From a virus, in IMG/VR virus record IMGVR_UViG_3300044627_004500, positions 1-41,335 of that record: a DNA stretch of 41,335 bases; one strand, given 5' to 3'. The translations under genes were made by a program, and so were the position numbers. Each line of letters starts with the position of its first letter. Position 1 is the stretch's first letter. This document shows, one piece after another, positions 2,880 through 40,195 of this stretch. Under the pieces are notes generated by a model that searched no databases, was not told the DNA's origin, and saw only the letters and a program-made list of their open reading frames with translations.

Positions 2880-4303
2880 TGGCATTCCTCGACTTCTTCC
2901 GTGCCAAGGCCAAGCCGCGCCCCGTCGCGGCTCCGGTCGTGCGCGGGCGGTACGAGGCGTCGCAGCTGGGCGACGACTACAAGCACTGGCAGGTCGCGGA
3001 CGCATTCTCTGCCGACGCGCAGCTTTCGCCGGTCGTGCGTCGCACGATCCGCAACCGCGCGAGGTATGAGCGCAACAACAACTCGTACCTGGCCGGCATC
3101 TCGGCCACGCTCGCAAGCGACCTGGTCGGCACCGGCCCGCGGCTGCAGCTCGACGTCCAGGACGACGCCGCGCGTGTCGTCGAGCGGGCGTTCTACGACT
3201 GGGGCACGACGATCGACCTGCCGGCGAAGCTCAGGACGATGCGCGAGGCGCTCGTCGTCGACGGCGAGGCGTTCGCACTGATGGTCAACAACGCCCGCCT
3301 GCCGGGCGTGCAGTTGGACCTGCGGCTCGTCGAGGCCGAGATGGTCGCAACCCCGACCGAGCTGATGCGGCAGACGATCACGCCCGAGGGCAACACGGTC
3401 GACGGTCTGGAGTTTGACGCCACCGGCAACGTGGTTGCCTACCAGGTGCTCAACTTCCACCCGGGCAGCAACTACCGCGTAAACAACCTGCAGTTCCAGC
3501 GCGTGCCGGCAGCAGCGGTCATCCACTGGTTCCGCCGGCAGCGTCCCGGCCAGAACCGCGGCATGCCCGAGGTGGCACCCGCGCTCCGGCTCTTCGGCCA
3601 GCTGCGTCGGTACACCGAGGCCGTGATTGCGGCCGCTGAGACGGCCGCGGATTTCGCGGCGTTCATTCATTCGAACAGTCCGGCCGCCGAGGTGGACGAG
3701 GTCGACGCGTTCGCCGAGATGGAGATCCGCAAGCGCAGCCTCGTGACCCTGCCGGAAGGCTGGGACATCTCGCAGCTCAAGGCCGAGCAGCCGACGAGCA
3801 CCTACAAGGACTTCAAGCGCGAGATCCTCAACGAGATCGCCCGCTGCATGCAGCTGCCGTACAACGTCGCCGCGCTCGACAGCTCGTCCTACAACTACGC
3901 CAGTGGCCGCATGGACCACCAGGTCTACGGCCTGATGCAGCGCGTCGACCGCGACCAGCTCGAGCGGGTCTGCCTCGACCGCGTGCTGGCCGCGTGGGTC
4001 AACGAGGCCAGCCTGGCCGGCGTCATCCCGGACGGCCTTCCGCCGTTCTCGGAGTGGAACTGGGCTTGGGTCTGGGACGGCCGCGAGCACGTCGACCCCG
4101 GCAAGGAGGCGTCGGCTGCCGAGGTGCGGTTGCGTACGCACACGACGACGCTCGCGAGCGAGTACGCCCGCCAGGGCAAGCGGTGGGACGTCGAGCTGCG
4201 GCAGCGTGCGGCCGAGCTGGAGCTGATGCGTGAGCTGGGGCTGCCGATCGACCTGGGTGGTGCGGCGCAGCCCATGCAGGAGGGCAATCCACAGGAGGCG
4301 TGA
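2879..4303 (+). CDS. Portal protein, lambda family
   Basis: The dodecameric ring at the capsid vertex through which DNA enters and leaves, and on which the head is built. At 474 residues it is within the portal range. Its sequence has the lambda/SPP1-type pattern: an N-terminal wing (LSPVVRRTIRNRARYERNN), a central YNVAALDSSSYNYASGRMD segment, and a stem and crown rich in Trp and Arg (PFSEWNWAWVWDGREHVDPGK). Its place between terminase and prohead protease is diagnostic. It starts on TGATG overlapping the previous stop. A strong AGGAGG lies just before its stop and serves the following micro-ORF. Confidence 0.9.
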   Translation: MAFLDFFRAKAKPRPVAAPVVRGRYEASQLGDDYKHWQVADAFSADAQLSPVVRRTIRNRARYERNNNSYLAGISATLASDLVGTGPRLQLDVQDDAARVVERAFYDWGTTIDLPAKLRTMREALVVDGEAFALMVNNARLPGVQLDLRLVEAEMVATPTELMRQTITPEGNTVDGLEFDATGNVVAYQVLNFHPGSNYRVNNLQFQRVPAAAVIHWFRRQRPGQNRGMPEVAPALRLFGQLRRYTEAVIAAAETAADFAAFIHSNSPAAEVDEVDAFAEMEIRKRSLVTLPEGWDISQLKAEQPTSTYKDFKREILNEIARCMQLPYNVAALDSSSYNYASGRMDHQVYGLMQRVDRDQLERVCLDRVLAAWVNEASLAGVIPDGLPPFSEWNWAWVWDGREHVDPGKEASAAEVRLRTHTTTLASEYARQGKRWDVELRQRAAELELMRELGLPIDLGGAAQPMQEGNPQEA

Positions 4304-10400: not shown

Positions 10401-10952
10401 GGGTCGGCGTCTGTGCGATGCGATTACGACGGCACCGGCGCGCGTTCATGGATTTTCGGCACCGCCGGGAGCGGGTATCGCGGCGGCGGATTTGGCGGTG
10501 AGTTTTTCCTGTATGACGAAACTGCTACGGCCGAGCGCATTCGCGTCAATAGCACGGGCGAGGTCATCGTCGGCGTCACCGACCAAGGCGCATACAACCT
10601 CCAATGCAACGGCACCGGAGTGTGGGGTGCTGGCGCGTATGTCAACGGCTCCGACGAACGAATCAAGAACGACATCGCTCCGCTGTCGTCATGCACCGAC
10701 GTGATAGAGGCTCTGCGGCCCGTGACATTCCGTTACAAGGAGTCATGGAGCAAGGATCAGAGCATCCAGCCGGGCTTCATTGCACAAGACCTTCAACAGG
10801 CATTGGCTGGTCAGCCGTACCTAGACGGCGTTGTCCAGCAGGGCACGGAGTATCTGTCTGTCGCGTACCAGACGCTGATCCCGCTGCTCGTCAAGGCACT
10901 GCAAGAGTCCAACGCACGCATCGCCGCACTAGAGGAGAGGATCAATGGCTGA
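7401..10952 (+). CDS. Collagen-like fibre with S74 intramolecular chaperone
   Basis: An 1183-residue fibre. The N-terminal ~80 residues ([20 protein letters not shown]) are probably the virion anchor. Residues ~81-640 are almost unbroken Gly-X-Y triplets dominated by GPTG, GATG and GAQG, a collagen-like trimeric stalk. Beta-rich modules follow, including the repeated [16 protein letters not shown]. The last ~100 residues are a peptidase S74 chaperone ([28 protein letters not shown]), which trimerises the fibre and cleaves itself, probably at the Ser of [25 protein letters not shown] forms its terminal coiled coil. The abundant Thr in the Y position could carry O-glycans, and sugar-handling genes follow. 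The gene lies at the head-tail junction, so the fibre may be a neck or head fibre. Confidence 0.85.
9840..9886 (+). repeat. 47-bp direct repeat, copy 1, inside the fibre gene
   Basis: Identical to 10119-10165. The two copies lie 279 bp (93 codons) apart in the same frame and encode [15 protein letters not shown]. They mark a duplicated fibre module and could recombine to change fibre length in 93-residue steps. Confidence 0.85.
10119..10165 (+). repeat. 47-bp direct repeat, copy 2, inside the fibre gene
   Basis: Second exact copy of the repeat at 9840-9886, in the same reading frame within the beta-rich part of the fibre. Confidence 0.85.
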
Positions 10953-12296: not shown

Positions 12297-13097
12297 ATGG
12301 GGCGCATACCAGGCGGGTACATCGGGATCGGTCCGCCAGCCCCCAGCACGTCGAGTGCTGTTGGTGTTTGGCCGCTGCACTTGCACTACTGGTACAAGCG
12401 CAACTCGATGTGGCCGCCGTCTAATGCAACCGATCAAGACTTCAGTAGCGTGTCGCTGCTCTTGCACATGGACGGCTCCAACGCGAGCACGACGTTTACA
12501 GACTCGTCATCAAATGCGTTCTCAGCGACGGCCAACGGCAACGCACAGATCAGTACGACCCAAAGCAAGTTTGGCGGCGCCAGCGGCAAGTTTGACGGCA
12601 GCGGCGACTACGTGCAGATCACGTCGGCCAACGCGCTCGAACTAGGGTCAGGCGATTTCACGATCGAGCTGTGGTACTACCACGACGGTGGCAATCAACA
12701 ATTCGCCGGACTGGTCGGCAAGGGTCCTGTAGGAAGCACCCCATCGGACGCGTGGACGCTGGAATTTGGTGGGAGTGGGATCATTTTCGTGCCTTGGGCT
12801 GCAAACACCGAAACGGTCACAACGACTGAGCCCACCCAGAACGCATGGCACCACGTCGCCGTCACACGCAGCGGATCGACACTGCGGCTTTTCATTGACG
12901 GCGTGCAGTCTGCTTCCAACACCGTGTCATTCACGGTGAGCACCAACAACAGCGGGCCGCTCGTGATCGGTGGCGGTGCGTTCGCTCCGTCGACACGATC
13001 GTTTTCTGGGTACATCGACGACCTCCGCATCACCAAAGGTGTCGCTCGGTACACGGCAGGGTTCACGCCACCCACGGCAGCGTTCCCCGACTCATGA
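12297..13097 (+). CDS. LamG/concanavalin-like lectin domain protein
   Basis: A 266-residue protein. After a ~50-residue Pro/aromatic N-terminus, residues ~55-262 form a LamG-like jelly roll: SLLLHMDGSNASTTFTDSS, then SKFGGASGKFDGSGDYVQI, ELGSGDFTIELWYY, NAWHHVAVTRSGSTLRLFIDG and the closing GYIDDLRITKGVARYT. These blocks are characteristic of the LamG_3 family found in phage tail and surface proteins, which usually bind carbohydrate. It probably recognises or displays sugars at the virion surface. It overlaps the epimerase start by 4 nt (ATGA), linking the lectin to the sugar genes. Confidence 0.8.
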   Translation: MGRIPGGYIGIGPPAPSTSSAVGVWPLHLHYWYKRNSMWPPSNATDQDFSSVSLLLHMDGSNASTTFTDSSSNAFSATANGNAQISTTQSKFGGASGKFDGSGDYVQITSANALELGSGDFTIELWYYHDGGNQQFAGLVGKGPVGSTPSDAWTLEFGGSGIIFVPWAANTETVTTTEPTQNAWHHVAVTRSGSTLRLFIDGVQSASNTVSFTVSTNNSGPLVIGGGAFAPSTRSFSGYIDDLRITKGVARYTAGFTPPTAAFPDS

Positions 13098-14044
13098 TCC
13101 TCGTCACCGGCGGAGCCGGTTTCATCGGCAGCCACGTCGTCGACCAGCTGCGCGAGGCGGGCAGGCGAGTCGCAGTTCTCGACGACATGTCGACCGGCAG
13201 CCGCGCCAACGTGCCGCCAGGCGTTCCTGTGCACGTCGTCGACGTGCGGGACGCCGGCAACGTCGAGCGAGTCGTCCGGGAGGTGCGACCGACGGCCATC
13301 TGTCACCAGGCTGCGCAGATCAGCGTGAGTCGGTCGGTGCGAGACGTGGCATTCGACGCCGAGGTCAACGTGGTCGGGCTGATCAATGTCGTGTCGGCCG
13401 CCGTGCGGCATGACTGCCGGCGGATTGTGTTCGCCTCGTCCGGCGGCGTCGTCTACGGCAACGTGCGCGAGCCGGCCGTCGAAGAGGCCGTCCGAGACCC
13501 GGTCAGCCCGTACGGCTTGGCCAAACTGACGGCGGAGCGGTACCTGGCGTGGCACGCACACTGGTACCACATGCAGGCCGTGGCGCTGCGGTACGCGAAC
13601 GTCTACGGGCCACGGCAGAACCCGCACGGCGAGGCCGGCGTCGTGGCGATCTTCTGCCGGGCAGCGATGGAGGGTCGGCCGTGCCAGATCCACGGCGTCG
13701 GCAGCCAAGTGCGTGACTACGTGCACGTGCGGGACGTGGCGGCAGCCAACGTGCTGGCACTGACTGCAGAGCTGCCCTACGGCAGGCTTTTCCCGGTCAA
13801 CGTGGGCACCGGCGTGGGCACGAGCGTGGCCCAGCTCGAGCAGCTGGTGCGGGGAGAGGTCGAGGCCGTCACGGGCCGTGGCCTGCCGCCGCCGGTGCAC
13901 GGCAATCCACGAGCCGGCGACCTTGGAAGCAGCCTGGTCGACGCAGCCTTTGCCGAGCACCTGCTGGGCTGGCGGCCATCCGTCACCCTGGCCGCCGGCA
14001 TCCGGGAGACGGTGCGGTACGCGGCCGTCCACGCGGCTGCCTGA
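13094..14044 (+). CDS. NAD-dependent sugar-nucleotide epimerase/dehydratase (extended SDR)
   Basis: A 316-residue extended short-chain dehydrogenase. The NAD-binding loop is GGAGFIG at residues 6-12. Catalytic Tyr140 and Lys144 lie in YGLAK, with the preceding Ser in FASSGGVVYG. Further family marks are RYANVYGPRQNPHGEAGVVAIF and DYVHVRDVAAANV. Closest known activities are UDP-glucose 4-epimerase and related C4 epimerases acting on NDP-sugars; the exact substrate cannot be told. The ATG overlaps the lectin stop. It probably supplies an activated sugar to the glycosyltransferase three genes downstream. Confidence 0.85.
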   Translation: MILVTGGAGFIGSHVVDQLREAGRRVAVLDDMSTGSRANVPPGVPVHVVDVRDAGNVERVVREVRPTAICHQAAQISVSRSVRDVAFDAEVNVVGLINVVSAAVRHDCRRIVFASSGGVVYGNVREPAVEEAVRDPVSPYGLAKLTAERYLAWHAHWYHMQAVALRYANVYGPRQNPHGEAGVVAIFCRAAMEGRPCQIHGVGSQVRDYVHVRDVAAANVLALTAELPYGRLFPVNVGTGVGTSVAQLEQLVRGEVEAVTGRGLPPPVHGNPRAGDLGSSLVDAAFAEHLLGWRPSVTLAAGIRETVRYAAVHAAA

Positions 14045-32747: not shown

Positions 32748-33650
32748 TCACGCAGTGCGAGCCGGCGGCTCGTGGTCATCAGGCTTGAATATTCGCGGCA
32801 TGGCCTGCCACGCCTTGGGGCGATGAGCATCGACCACGCGAGGATCTAGGTAGCTACGCCGAGTGATGCGGTCGGACGAGTGGCCGAGAAATGCCGTGGC
32901 GTCGAAGCCGGCCGCTGCGAGATGCGACGCCGTCGACCGACGCAGAGCGTGGAACTGAACGTCGCGTCCGTCGCCAAGGCCGGCGCGCCTCGTGATGGTC
33001 TTCCAGCGTTTTCGCAGGGCCGTCCCGCTGGCGACCCACCAGAACACCGTCGGACCGTTGTGAGCCGCCACGCGGTCGACCAGGTCGCAGGCCTCGGGCG
33101 ACAGCTCGTAGACACGTTCCTGGCGTCCGCCTTTCCGGACGTGGGCCGGCACGGTGAGCGTCGGCCGTCGCCAGCACATGCGGGGCGTCGACAGGATCGC
33201 GTTTATGCGCTCGCCGGTTTCCAGTGCCACAGCGACGAGCGCCGGGAAGAAAACCGCCGCCGGCACAGGCCCGACCCAGCCGCTCGAATGCCGTGCGGCG
33301 TCGGCGAGCCTGGCCAGCTCGTCCGTCGTGAACGCTCGCGGCATCGCCTGCGGCACCAGCTCGGGCGCGACCGACGGCCGAAGCTTCACGAGGCCGCGGC
33401 CTTGGGCGAGGTTCCACAGGGCCAAGAGCCCTGACCGCTCGCGGGCCACGCTGTTGGGCGAAAGCCGCTGGCCGCGCACTGCGAGGAACTGGCTGACGGT
33501 CAGGTCCTCGAGGTCGTCGAGGAGCGCGGCTCGTCCGAGCCACTTGGAAAACTGCGTGATGGCGTGCCGCAGCAGGCGGACACTTTCGCGCGACCTGCCG
33601 CGCAGGCGGAGCGGCACGTACACGGTGTCGAGAAACGCGTCGAGAGTCAT
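32748..33650 (-). CDS. int: Tyrosine recombinase (phage integrase)
   Basis: A 300-residue protein on the minus strand with AGGAGG upstream of its ATG. An N-terminal SAM-like DNA-binding domain covers ~1-95. The catalytic set is complete: Arg148 in GERINA, Lys173 in the beta-hairpin (RKGG), His234 and Arg237 in HALR, His257 in GHSSD, and Tyr267 in RRSYLD. It inserts the phage genome at a host attachment site. Position between the excisionase-like gene and the repressor is typical. Attachment sites could not be identified from this sequence alone. Confidence 0.9.
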   Translation of the reverse strand: MTLDAFLDTVYVPLRLRGRSRESVRLLRHAITQFSKWLGRAALLDDLEDLTVSQFLAVRGQRLSPNSVARERSGLLALWNLAQGRGLVKLRPSVAPELVPQAMPRAFTTDELARLADAARHSSGWVGPVPAAVFFPALVAVALETGERINAILSTPRMCWRRPTLTVPAHVRKGGRQERVYELSPEACDLVDRVAAHNGPTVFWWVASGTALRKRWKTITRRAGLGDGRDVQFHALRRSTASHLAAAGFDATAFLGHSSDRITRRSYLDPRVVDAHRPKAWQAMPRIFKPDDHEPPARTA

Positions 33651-33873
33651 GGTGCGTGATCCTCCTACTCAGGGATAGGTCACGCGTCCGGGCGGGTGTG
33701 CTCCGTCCGTGGAAGGGAGTCCGGTCGTGCGGTCTGTGCGGGTCGGCCGGTTTTGCGGGGTTTCATCCTGTCCCCGCCACTTTCAAACGTTGCAATCCCG
33801 ACGGGATCGCAACCCTGTCCCCGGTAGACCCACTGCAACCATCGGGACCTACGCCAAGGAAGGCAAAGCGCTG
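33651..33873. promoter_or_regulatory. Divergent integrase/repressor control region
   Basis: A 223-bp gap between the divergently read integrase and repressor. It holds a near-perfect 23-bp palindrome at 33790-33812 (TTGCAATCCCG, A, CGGGATCGCAA; one mismatch) and a 10-bp direct repeat CCTGTCCCCG at 33767-33776 and 33814-33823. The half-site GGGATCGCAAC also occurs at 32709-32719 beyond the integrase. It is a likely site for repressor or integrase binding, possibly including attP. Confidence 0.55.
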
Positions 33874-34134
33874 ATGGGAGTGTCCGCAAAAAAGCCGAAG
33901 CGCACCGGTCGGCCACGCACCATGTCCTACGGGCCGTTTGGGCAGCGGCTCGCCGCCAAACTGTCCGATCGCGGCTGGACGAGGAAGACGCTGGAGGAGA
34001 AGACCGGCGTCAACGAAAAGTCGATCTGGCGATGGATGGCCGGCAAGAACCGGCCAGACCCTGACGGCGTGGCCGCTATCGCCAAGGTGCTAGCGTGCTC
34101 CCCCAGCTGGCTGCTGTGGGGCAAAGCTGCCTAA
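33874..34134 (+). CDS. Cro/CI-type HTH repressor
   Basis: An 86-residue protein from ATG 33874 (AAGGAAGG upstream); an in-frame ORF extends further upstream, but the palindromic control region argues against that start. After a basic N-terminus (KKPKRTGRPRTM), residues 27-80 form an HTH_3 domain: FGQRLAAKLSDRGWTRKTLE, then EKTGVNEKSIWRWMAGKNRP, then VAAIAKVLACSPSWLLWG. This is the classic XRE fold. There is no C-terminal dimerisation/autocleavage domain, so it may be a Cro-like protein or a minimal repressor. It probably acts at the neighbouring palindromes. Confidence 0.8.
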   Translation: MGVSAKKPKRTGRPRTMSYGPFGQRLAAKLSDRGWTRKTLEEKTGVNEKSIWRWMAGKNRPDPDGVAAIAKVLACSPSWLLWGKAA

Positions 34135-34261: not shown

Positions 34262-34567
34262 ATGGGCCGCGGATTCGCGCACGTCACGGATACGCAGCTC
34301 CTCGAGTGGGCGGCGGATATGCCCTTGGAGCGCATCGCCGCAATCACGGCGTCGACTACCTCGTTGATCTTGCGCCGGCTACGGGCGCTCGGCTGGACGG
34401 ACCCTCGGCCAGGACCAACGGACCCGGACGAGGCGACCATACGCCAGCGGTCGTTGGAAGTGCAGTCGCGCTGGTCCGAGCAGGAGCGACGCAGGAGAGC
34501 CGGGCTGCGGCGAGCGAACGTAACCGTCGTACGCGCATCCGATCTCGGGCTTGCCAGCTTCTGGTGA
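34262..34567 (+). CDS. Early HTH-like hypothetical protein
   Basis: A 101-residue protein; start at ATG 34262 by domain position, with no good ribosome site. Residues 8-45 (DTQLLEWAADMPLERIAAIT, then STTSLILRRLRALGW) look like a homeodomain-like HTH for DNA binding. The rest is a basic, charged helix (SRWSEQERRRRAGLRRAN). It is the first gene after the operator, so it may be an early regulator. It overlaps the next gene in GTGA. Confidence 0.5.
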   Translation: MGRGFAHVTDTQLLEWAADMPLERIAAITASTTSLILRRLRALGWTDPRPGPTDPDEATIRQRSLEVQSRWSEQERRRRAGLRRANVTVVRASDLGLASFW

Positions 34568-34917
34568 GGTGGCTGCACCGCGTCGCTCGCTGCCACGCGC
34601 ATCTGTGCGCCATTGTGCGGCTGTACGGCGATCCATCGAAGGCCGGCGGACAGTCAAACGCCGGCGAGACGTACCAGGCCCGCGCGGCTCGCGGCGACCG
34701 GACGCTGCTCTACGACGCGCTGACGGTGACGATCGACGAGCTGATCGAGGTCCGCGACGAGATCGGCGCGACCATGGACGCGGCCGAGCCGACGACGGCC
34801 GCGCCGGGCACGCAAGACAAGGTCGAGGAGATGTGTCGCCGCGCCGAGCGTGGCGAGAGCCTCTTCGTCGATGGCGATACGCAAGGACGCGAGGTCGGCG
34901 ACGGATCGCTGGCCTGA
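34564..34917 (+). CDS. Early hypothetical protein
   Basis: A 117-residue protein taken from GTG 34564, which overlaps the previous stop. The first ~20 residues are basic and Cys/His-rich (RWLHRVARCHAHLCAIVRLY). The middle is helical (LLYDALTVTIDELIEVRDEIGATMDAAEP) and the end acidic. No family was recognised. A 38-codon ORF starting inside it (34871-34987) overlaps the csrA start but lacks a ribosome site. Confidence 0.45.
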   Translation: MRWLHRVARCHAHLCAIVRLYGDPSKAGGQSNAGETYQARAARGDRTLLYDALTVTIDELIEVRDEIGATMDAAEPTTAAPGTQDKVEEMCRRAERGESLFVDGDTQGREVGDGSLA

Positions 34918-34980
34918 TCACGGATGGTTTTTTGCGGTCGGTCGTGACGGAGTGCGGCCGGCCGCGCTAAGGAGGGCTAC

Positions 34981-35190
34981 GTGCTAGTGCTCACGCGAGC
35001 GGAGGGCGAGCGTGTCGTCGTGCCGCATGCACGGATGGAAATCGTGGTGCAGGAGATCCGCGGCAACGTCGTCCGCCTGGCGTTTCGAGCGCCACAGCGT
35101 GTCGACATCTTCCGCGGCGAGGTGTTCGACAGGATCGCGATGGATCAGTGGGACGAGGACGAACCAACTCAAGAGGAGGACGTGAAGTGA
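34981..35190 (+). CDS. csrA: CsrA-family RNA-binding regulator
   Basis: A 69-residue protein from GTG 34981 with AAGGAGG 6 nt upstream. The N-terminus MLVLTRAEGERVVV and the later VRLAFRAPQRVDIFRGEVFD match CsrA beta strands 1 and 5. The two RNA-contact regions are present, Leu4/Arg6 and Arg45 (equal to the conserved Arg44). The acidic tail (DQWDEDEPTQEED) is longer than usual. CsrA dimers bind GGA in 5' leaders and usually block translation or change mRNA stability; a phage copy could redirect host carbon metabolism or motility, or tune phage mRNAs. Its own leader contains an AGGAGG. Confidence 0.85.
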   Translation: MLVLTRAEGERVVVPHARMEIVVQEIRGNVVRLAFRAPQRVDIFRGEVFDRIAMDQWDEDEPTQEEDVK

Positions 35191-36113
35191 AGATCGTGAA
35201 AGGCAAGCAGGCTGCACCGGTGCGGTGCGTGCTCTACGGCGTCGAGGGCATCGGTAAGACGACGCTGGCGGCGCAGTTTCCGACGCCGCTGTTTCTCGAC
35301 ACCGAGGACGGCACCAAGCAGCTCGAGGTCGACCGTGTCGCGTGCCAGGACTGGCCGAGCCTGCGGGGCGCGGTGGCCGAGCTGGCCGTCGAGAAGCACG
35401 GCTACCAGACGATCGTCATCGACTCGATCGACTGGGCGGAGCGGGCGCTAGTCGAGTTCGTCTGCAAGCAGGACGGCAAGAAGTCCATTGAGGACTACGG
35501 CTTCGGCAAGGGCTACACGGTCGTGGCCGAGCATATGGGTCGGTTTGTCGAGGGCCTCGACAACCTGCACCGCGCCGGCCTGCACGTGCTGCTCGTGGCC
35601 CACGCCAAGGTGCAACGGACGAGCCCGCCAGACCAGACGGACGGCTACGACCGGTACGAGCTGCGGCTGTCGAAGCAGGTCAGCCCGATCGTCAAGGAAT
35701 GGGCGGACGCATTGTTATTCGCCAACTACCGCATGCGGCTCATCGAGGGCAGCGACGGGAAGCGCAAGGCGATCGGCGGCAAGGACCGCGTCGTCTACGC
35801 CGAGCGTGCTGCGGCCTACGACGCCAAGAACCGGTACGGGCTGGGCGAAGAGCTGCCCATGACCATCGAGGCTCTGGCCCCGCTGTTCACCGGCACGGGT
35901 GCCAGGCCGGTCGACACCGAGCTGTACGACCAGGTGGTGCGGTACATCGCCGAGGCCAAGAGCGTGCGGACGCTCGGCAAGATCGGCGACCGCATCGACG
36001 CACTGCTCTCGGACGGCCAGCTGACGGCCGAGCAGGGCGAGGCGTTGACAGTACTGGTCAAGGAGCGGCACGACGCGATCGAGCCGCAGGAGGTGACCGA
36101 TGGCGTGGCATGA
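35187..36113 (+). CDS. Sak4-like RecA-fold ATPase (phage recombination/nucleotide-binding)
   Basis: A 308-residue protein from GTG 35187, overlapping the csrA stop, with GAGGAGG upstream. Walker A is GVEGIGKTT at residues 18-26; Walker B is TIVIDSIDW with Asp79. The pattern (FLDTEDGTKQLEVDR, GLHVLLVAHAKVQRT, DRYELRLSKQVSPIVKEWAD) is that of phage AAA_24/Sak4 proteins, RecA-like single-strand annealing or loading factors. The SSB-like gene two genes down, a usual Sak4 partner, supports this. Confidence 0.8.
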   Translation: MKIVKGKQAAPVRCVLYGVEGIGKTTLAAQFPTPLFLDTEDGTKQLEVDRVACQDWPSLRGAVAELAVEKHGYQTIVIDSIDWAERALVEFVCKQDGKKSIEDYGFGKGYTVVAEHMGRFVEGLDNLHRAGLHVLLVAHAKVQRTSPPDQTDGYDRYELRLSKQVSPIVKEWADALLFANYRMRLIEGSDGKRKAIGGKDRVVYAERAAAYDAKNRYGLGEELPMTIEALAPLFTGTGARPVDTELYDQVVRYIAEAKSVRTLGKIGDRIDALLSDGQLTAEQGEALTVLVKERHDAIEPQEVTDGVA

Positions 36114-37608: not shown

Positions 37609-38460
37609 ATGTCAACAGCAGCAACACAACAGCACGAAACCTTTATGACAACCATGACGCCTGAAGAGTGGGCTTCAGTGCCAGACAATCCAAGGCAACG
37701 AGACACAGAGTGCAGGGCGGCGAAAGCAAGGCACCTAAATACTCTTGAAGCGGCCCACACGCTTGTCCATATGGCGGAATGGGGGGCTGGCAGATGCAAG
37801 CTTGAGGGCCACACACGTGCCCTCAAGTGGATGCAGTCTCCTGAAACCGCCCCGGAGTCTATTGATGTTCGAGTGTACGTCGTTGACTCCATAGAAGAGG
37901 CAAAGCGGTTATATGGGCACTTCAACAGCAAAGAAGAGGGCGAGCGATCGAATGACCGTCTTTTCGGAGCGTTGAGGGAAAACGAAATCACTCCAGTTAG
38001 CGATTTCGTTCGCAAGGCCAAGTTCAGTAATGCCGTAAGCATGGCCCACGCGTTCTACGTAGAGCATTCGCGACACAAACCGTTGTCGGTGTACGAAAAG
38101 GTGGCGTTTTTTCGTGAAGAAATAGTCCTGCTCGACAGAATTGCTGGCGCTAGCAAGCGAATGATCGGCCCAGTTGTCTGCTGTTTTCTGATGGCAGCAC
38201 ATAAGCACGGGCCAGCCGTAATGGACTTCTTTCAGCGTTACATCCTTGACGGTGGGGCAAAAGACGGCCGCAGGAAGGATTGCGTGCAGTTGTTTAGCGA
38301 CGTGATGGCGGACGTTCGTTCTGGAGGTTTTTGCGACTGGGCGACGCAAGAGAAGTCAGTGGCGAAAGGGCTCTGGTGCATTGACCGGTGGCTATCTGCA
38401 CCTACCGCAATGCTTACACGGGTCAACGAGTGCGACCCGTGGTCGTACCGAGACAAGTAA
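37609..38460 (+). CDS. ParB/Srx-like domain protein on a lower-GC island
   Basis: A 283-residue protein from ATG 37609 (AAAGGAG upstream; ATG 37605 is out of frame). Residues ~60-125 (GAGRCKLEGHTRALKWM, IDVRVYVVDSIEEAKRLYGH, FNSKEEGERSND) recall the ParB/sulfiredoxin fold, where the KLEGHTR-like motif lies at the nucleotide site. The C-terminal ~150 residues are helical (YEKVAFFREEIVLLDRIAG). Its GC content is visibly lower than its neighbours and it has its own ribosome site, so it looks like a recently gained gene. Function unknown; a nuclease or superinfection role is possible. Confidence 0.55.
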   Translation: MSTAATQQHETFMTTMTPEEWASVPDNPRQRDTECRAAKARHLNTLEAAHTLVHMAEWGAGRCKLEGHTRALKWMQSPETAPESIDVRVYVVDSIEEAKRLYGHFNSKEEGERSNDRLFGALRENEITPVSDFVRKAKFSNAVSMAHAFYVEHSRHKPLSVYEKVAFFREEIVLLDRIAGASKRMIGPVVCCFLMAAHKHGPAVMDFFQRYILDGGAKDGRRKDCVQLFSDVMADVRSGGFCDWATQEKSVAKGLWCIDRWLSAPTAMLTRVNECDPWSYRDK

Positions 38461-39412: not shown

Positions 39413-40195
39413 ATGCGAGCCCTGGTCGTGATCCTCGCGCTAGCCCTGACGCACCCAGCCGTCGCTGGGACCAGGGACGACGGCGTGCCGGATGCCCGGT
39501 ACCTCGAGCTGGGTCGGCAGATGCGGCCGTACACGGCCGCGGTCAGCTGCCGCAGCCCCGAGGGGCATCGGCACACGGCCACGGCGGTGGTCATCGCCGG
39601 CCGCTGGGCGCTGACGGCGGCACACGTCGTGGCCGGCTGCGACGACGTGCGGCTGGCGTTCGCGGACACGTCACGGGACGTCGACCTGGTCGTCGTGCAC
39701 CCGGGCTGGGAGCGGCTGGCCATGGCCAGCGAAGACCTGGCGATCCTGCGGACGACCGAGGACTGTGCCCTGCCCTGGTACCCGGAGATTGCCGAGACGG
39801 TCACGGCCGGCGAGGCCTGCATCGTCGCCGGCTACGGCGTGACGGGCACCATGTGGCGAGGCTACGAGATCGCAGACGGCCGGCTCCGAGCCGGCACGCA
39901 GACGATCGACTCGATCGACGGGCCGATCGTCACCTGCTCGGCACGGGCCAAGTCGTCGCCGCTCGAGTACATGATCGCCCCGGGCGACAGTGGCGGGCCG
40001 CTGTTCGTTGGGTCTGGGTCACACGCCAAACTGGCCGCCATCAACTCGCATCAGGTCGGGCCACGTGGGCCACTGCGTTCACGTTACGGCGAGGAGAGCG
40101 GGCACGTGCTGCTGCACCCTGTGCGTGCGTGGATGACGTCCGTCATGGAGGCCAACCATGGGACGCATGAGCCGCCAGAAGGGCAAGCGCGGTGA
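39413..40195 (+). CDS. Secreted trypsin-like serine protease
   Basis: A 260-residue protein with an N-terminal signal peptide, MRALVVILALALTHPAVAG, cut near Ala17-Gly19. The trypsin/chymotrypsin triad is complete: His71 in LTAAHVV, Asp108 in EDLAILRT, and Ser193 in PGDSGGPL. Secreted or periplasmic proteases of this kind are unusual in phage early regions. It may modify the host surface, degrade extracellular proteins or act in superinfection exclusion. It has its own candidate promoter and overlaps the next gene by 38 nt, so it may be a morphologically independent cargo gene. Confidence 0.85.
   Translation: MRALVVILALALTHPAVAGTRDDGVPDARYLELGRQMRPYTAAVSCRSPEGHRHTATAVVIAGRWALTAAHVVAGCDDVRLAFADTSRDVDLVVVHPGWERLAMASEDLAILRTTEDCALPWYPEIAETVTAGEACIVAGYGVTGTMWRGYEIADGRLRAGTQTIDSIDGPIVTCSARAKSSPLEYMIAPGDSGGPLFVGSGSHAKLAAINSHQVGPRGPLRSRYGEESGHVLLHPVRAWMTSVMEANHGTHEPPEGQAR

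Follow-up and report, generated by a model that had tools for sequence, protein, structure and literature searches.

Does a phage that carries csrA also carry the means of keeping this regulator in check? The question is raised by a 41,335-base viral record, a complete IMG/VR entry that was analysed over its whole length and is referred to here as the window. Judged by its gene content, which includes structural genes (terminase, portal, head protease/capsid, tape measure and tail fibres) as well as an integrase, a CI-like repressor, Sak4, a replication initiation protein, a trypsin-like protein and a RusA-like resolvase, the window is a temperate siphovirus-like phage. The tyrosine integrase expected of such a phage is encoded on the minus strand (32748..33650; phrog_1, E 2.9e-25; PF00589), and the CI-like repressor, a helix-turn-helix (HTH) protein, on the plus strand (33709..34134; phrog_4, E 5.4e-12; HTH_3). 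Two other genes were noted in passing: a nucleotide-sugar epimerase (13094-14044; phrog_540, E 9.5e-64) lies 3' of the tail genes, and a trypsin-like serine protease (39413-40195; PF00089, E 1.6e-16) sits unexpectedly in the early region, beside the replication genes.

The csrA gene (34981..35190, plus strand) starts with GTG and encodes 69 amino acids in a frame free of internal stops. Its product matches the CsrA family PF02599 (48-53.2 bits, E 2.8e-14, cut-off 27) and phrog_9500, 'CsrA-like regulator' (E 2.3e-10), and its best sequence matches in the PDB are solved CsrA/RsmA structures (E 5e-6). An AlphaFold model of the monomer was weak (mean pLDDT 66); the 14 best PDB matches of this model are CsrA-family chains, at E 2e-3 or worse and mostly with an rmsd near 5-6 Å. 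The real CsrA fold is a swapped dimer. In an alignment with the solved structures the phage protein keeps the first strand (L2, L4, T5, R6), G9-E10, A37-P38 and R45, the last of which corresponds to R44 of E. coli CsrA, shifted by a one-residue insertion. L4, R6 and R45 are invariant in 15/15 aligned phage homologues, and R6 is an RNA-contact residue. The available part of a review names L4 and R44 as critical RNA contacts of CsrA (PMC7652899). Scoring 53.2 bits where the cut-off is 27, and with L4, R6 and R45 retained, the product is the clear CsrA with RNA-contact residues that a preliminary description of this DNA had recognized. The gene is under purifying selection, with changes that are mostly silent: dN is 0.222 and dS 1.507 between the window and locus L043; the corresponding values against locus L028 are 0.052 and 0.267.

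That phages can carry csrA is not new. The preliminary description held such copies to be scarce, which is only partly right: E. coli CsrA is matched by 85 of 50,697 phage records (E ≤ 1e-3) and the accessible text of a 2020 survey gives 30 of 2,517 phage genomes with csrA (PMC7366521). The temperate Pseudomonas phage AUS531phi likewise encodes a CsrA-domain protein, Bci, and according to the part of the report available its deletion lowers infection and alters motility and biofilm (PMC7546807); the Bci locus (L179) differs in having one A(N)GGA in a 150-nt leader and an annotated gene of 372 nt. In coliphage PTXU04, knockdown of a csrA homologue shrinks plaques, so this phage csrA also helps infection (PMC11879866, available in part). 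RsmQ is another CsrA-family regulator on a mobile element, but one that is plasmid-borne (pQBR103), and the portion of its description at hand has it acting mostly on host proteins (PMC9928087). By analogy with Bci, the PTXU04 homologue and RsmQ, the CsrA encoded in the window may have effects on the host.

The gene is the third in an early cassette of four, in the order HTH-like gene, 117-aa gene, csrA, sak4. The first gene (34262..34567, plus strand) is HTH-like by inspection, although its product had no match among Pfam and PHROG families. The second (34564..34917, plus strand) encodes a 117-aa protein with no Pfam match and weak PHROG matches only; this protein has a highly conserved core starting WLHRVARCHAHLCAIVRLYG. 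The fourth (35187..36113, plus strand) encodes a Sak4-like ssDNA annealing ATPase (phrog_124, E 9.1e-48; AAA_24, E 7.8e-54). As had been described, csrA precedes the Sak4-like gene and overlaps it by the four nucleotides GTGA, and because of this overlap sak4 is probably translationally coupled to csrA.

We scanned viral contigs for CsrA (28 loci), for Sak4 (80 loci kept of 104), with a CsrA alignment (48 loci) and for the upstream protein (58 loci), these four sets overlapping heavily. All four cassette genes are present in 15 of the 16 loci L043-L058, the exception being L048, which is without the upstream two. In L048, a phage with sak4 and a different CsrA, there is a weak leader match at 3757-3840 (13.6 bits), and its csrA was perhaps a separate acquisition. 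At the divergent loci L229-L241, where the upstream protein is 62-71% identical, csrA comes next and then sak4 in 13/13, and the 117-aa protein accompanies csrA at all loci checked in this phage group. These searches found neither csrA nor the upstream gene among 37 loci with more distant Sak4 relatives (L059-L095).

The csrA leader is unusually rich in A(N)GGA. Motifs start at 34883, 34901, 34920, 34947 and 34969 (-98, -80, -61, -34 and -12 from csrA), the fifth being the strong AAGGAGG of the preliminary description, found at 34969..34975 on the plus strand, 5 nt before the GTG start. The mean on the plus strand of the window is 0.36 per 120 nt; five in 120 nt occur in the csrA leader only, the densest spot on either strand. 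Five or more motifs arose in 0.1% of 4,000 trials under a first-order Markov model of the leader and in 0/4,000 under a first-order Markov model of the whole window. Among 18 orderings of its letters ANGGA ranks first in the leader, with 13-fold enrichment, followed by two at about 7-fold (highest 7.3-fold). One other spot in the window has four A(N)GGA within 120 nt, at 10726-10856, where a long tail-fibre/collagen-like repeat gene ends, and this cluster is likely coding.

The motifs recur in the leaders of related phages. Our initial count covered 46 rows, 26 of them distinct, with leaders of fewer than 150 nt upstream excluded, L002 not listed and L029, L030 and L142 being cut fragments. 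Between -120 and -1 of csrA, 39 distinct leaders hold five motifs in 21 cases, four in 17 and three in one, spaced 12-43 nt apart (median 19 nt). A GGA stands 8-11 nt before the csrA start in 19/19 leaders listed, and the Shine-Dalgarno site is without the A of A(N)GGA in 13/13 leaders listed from L136 on. The fifth site alone says little because GGA is common in Shine-Dalgarno sequences, and we rejected AGGAGG alone as proof of autoregulation since many Shine-Dalgarno sequences contain it. In twelve further phage csrA leaders, 150 nt contain 0-3 A(N)GGA, and the four csrA leaders of a planctomycete metagenome-assembled genome (MAG) contain 1-2 over the same length.

Four of the five motifs fall in predicted hairpins on the plus strand. 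Hairpin 1 (34880..34891) presents AAGGA at 34883 in the loop of a 3-bp stem with covarying C-G/G-C and G-C/U-A pairs, and hairpin 2 (34892..34915) holds ACGGA at 34901 on a covarying 10-bp stem, its GGA having an unpaired probability of 1.0 in the predicted fold; both lie inside the upstream gene. Hairpin 3 (34916..34929), with ACGGA at 34920, is the weakest of the four, a 5-bp stem with GU pairs and A-U/C-G covariation. Hairpin 4 (34933..34966) carries ACGGA at 34947 in the loop of a GC-rich 14-bp stem, and this motif is conserved in the aligned leaders. When leaders were folded singly, 51 of 79 A(N)GGA sites fell in apical loops, compared with 14 of the 118 ANGGA elsewhere in the window; the remaining 28 of 79 leader sites lie outside apical loops, and in L043 just one of four is within a loop in the predicted folds. 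Some leader stems are predicted to be very stable, whereas most CsrA ligands from SELEX have four or fewer contiguous pairs in the available text of the review (PMC7652899).

Support for these hairpins comes from covariation in a MAFFT alignment of 20 of the 26 distinct leaders. The four-hairpin structure, as we specified it, leaves 93.1% of cells paired compared with 79.9% after shuffling. Double changes affect 11 pairs and 65 cells (28.2 in shuffled alignments), a number that none of 500 shuffles reached, although the aligned leaders are related and such shuffle counts (0/500) are not probabilities. The covariation score of 0.360 dropped to 0.106 or less when the partner was slid by 1-3 columns, and RNAalifold recovered hairpins 1, 2 and 4 unaided. 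The GGA cores of the four upstream motifs are invariant in 20/20 aligned leaders, and the N varies. A covariance model of the whole leader (R1) spans 34866..34983 on the plus strand with 116 bits (cmsearch), the next best match in the window scoring 10.6, with the window itself among the source sequences of the model; unseen leaders of the divergent loci scored 47-92 bits. The result holds in a wider alignment of 23 rows, to which L129 contributes a partial match on the minus strand and L048 a weak one: it has 77 double-changed cells compared with 29.3 after shuffling, but being fitted to the model it leans towards the structure.

Similar designs are known. According to the available sections of the review, CsrA bound to a hairpin of glgC bridges to the Shine-Dalgarno sequence across a distance of 10-63 nt, and the csrA gene of E. 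coli is repressed by its own product at four sites in the leader (PMC7652899). The E. coli csrA leader likewise has several GGA sites with one on the Shine-Dalgarno sequence, but the gene studied here is phage-borne, its covarying hairpins are regularly spaced, its array lies partly inside the upstream gene and a recombinase gene is coupled to it. As in autoregulated leaders, there are several GGA sites, one of them on the Shine-Dalgarno sequence and one or more in hairpin loops.

Because the leader shares this known arrangement of hairpins and Shine-Dalgarno site, in a more regular form, we interpret it as a brake that phage CsrA applies to itself: with a probability of roughly 0.7, it is a CsrA-binding array through which the phage CsrA would shut off translation of its own gene and of the coupled sak4. 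The gene would make a functional CsrA, and up to four stem-loops would present A(N)GGA ahead of the GGA in the Shine-Dalgarno sequence. As CsrA accumulates, dimers would dock on the hairpins, bridge to the Shine-Dalgarno sequence and block the ribosome, lowering translation of csrA and, via the GTGA overlap, of sak4, which would amount to negative feedback on the early operon. Since hairpins 1 and 2 lie within the upstream gene, ribosomes completing that gene would open them, and its translation may tune the brake. The suggestion in the preliminary description that the leader could be autoregulated thus gains support from a conserved, covarying hairpin array, beyond AGGAGG alone. The array, the upstream gene and csrA occur together at all upstream-gene loci checked, so the data fit an array of csrA or of the upstream gene.

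The leader array is the new part of the finding; the literature searched, most subscription journals and bioRxiv apart, held no report of a covarying array of CsrA sites before a phage csrA. At other starts in the window, on both strands, a search for A(N)GGA leaders retrieved no hairpin comparable to those of csrA. We rejected further phage targets in the window, as A(N)GGA falls in hairpins of at least five pairs in 11/124 cases on the plus strand and 7/65 on the minus strand; near called starts, such sites comprise the two of csrA and one weak case at 38275.

The CsrA that binds the array might instead be that of the host. The closest portal, 77% identical and the sole relative found in a genome collection, is on an 8,654-base MAG contig (L096). 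This MAG has 21 matches to PF07596, which is absent from 14/14 control genomes and which we take to be a marker of Planctomycetota. The host is probably a member of this phylum, a probable rather than proven assignment because the 8.7-kb portal contig might be binned free phage. Sak4 relatives are present in 41 of 392 genomes of the phylum, and csrA was not found beside them among the 30 loci listed. The leader model also matched 27 of the 392 genomes, which we attribute to chance since these matches score 29.3 bits or less and phage leaders at least 47; HMM and phmmer searches detected no csrA, upstream gene or sak4 at the 12 such loci listed.

It is accordingly conceivable, if unlikely, that host CsrA restrains the early operon, that the phage thereby senses host physiology in the choice between lysogeny and lysis, and that its own CsrA is secondary. 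In the probable host phylum csrA is present in 38 of 99 sampled genomes, reaching 9 to 17 matches in four of these, and the MAG whose portal is closest carries four; CsrA proteins in general recognise A(N)GGA, as the available part of the review states (PMC7652899). However, 61 of the 99 genomes have no csrA match, the identity of the host rests on one 8.7-kb contig, and the array tracks the phage csrA: R1 had no match at E ≤ 1 in the 30 csrA-less Sak4 relatives searched out of the 37 above.

We give about the same low weight to a two-way role, in which the array would be a brake on csrA and sak4 in cis and a CsrB-like sponge in trans that would draw host CsrA proteins off their targets; supplying its own CsrA, the phage would thereby put its own Csr network in place of that of the host. 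The phage mRNA could act as a sponge because CsrA proteins read similar motifs and the leader has five sites. The sponge RNAs RsmX, RsmY and RsmZ are rows of stem-loops with GGA in the loops. CsrB and CsrC are built likewise, according to the accessible text of the review (PMC7652899). Unlike these RNAs, the phage array lies in an mRNA leader and has 4-5 motifs. The leader had no Rfam match at E ≤ 1, and neither a separate sigma-70 promoter nor a terminator was found at the array by consensus scan, a scan that is weak in this phylum.

A brake worked by phage CsrA also has to be weighed against hairpins that serve as DNA operator repeats, protection from RNA decay or a ribosome stand-by structure, with incidental GGA loops. 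The repeats are near-palindromic as DNA too, and the consensus scan offered no promoter or terminator by which to place them. However, a DNA operator would keep its arms over its centre, and here the stems show compensatory changes while the N varies and the GGA cores are invariant; moreover, where the motifs fall in the final part of the upstream gene, glycine is preferentially encoded by GGA. We therefore regard such a role as improbable, more so than a target of host CsrA.

The codon evidence comes from the final codons of the upstream gene, in which the first and second motifs of the array are embedded. Across 44 distinct upstream genes, GGA is used in 94 of 135 tail glycine codons that are preceded by a codon with A in the middle, and in 7 of their remaining 402 glycine codons; in 13 window genes it accounts for 34 of 437 glycine codons, and for 3 of 122 after a middle-A codon. 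Both array slots are GGA in all 17 tails listed although the residue before them differs between tails (D, E, Q or K), which points to selection on the RNA and not on the protein. That the upstream protein simply needs a Gly-Asp-Gly rich tail, with csrA following by chance, is very unlikely: the tail does have several conserved residues and does encode the first two motifs, but GGA is far commoner in the tail slots than among the other glycine codons of these genes, and further sites of the array lie outside the gene.

Phage csrA genes are known, but the circuits in which they act have hardly been studied. The conserved cassette described here brings its own predicted RNA target, so that a binding site can be tested at once, and the leader model R1 provides a marker for finding such phages. 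Selection at the RNA level also appears to have left its mark on the tail of the neighbouring upstream gene. If phage CsrA acts on the array as proposed, the array would offer a model of the way in which a phage restrains a global regulator.
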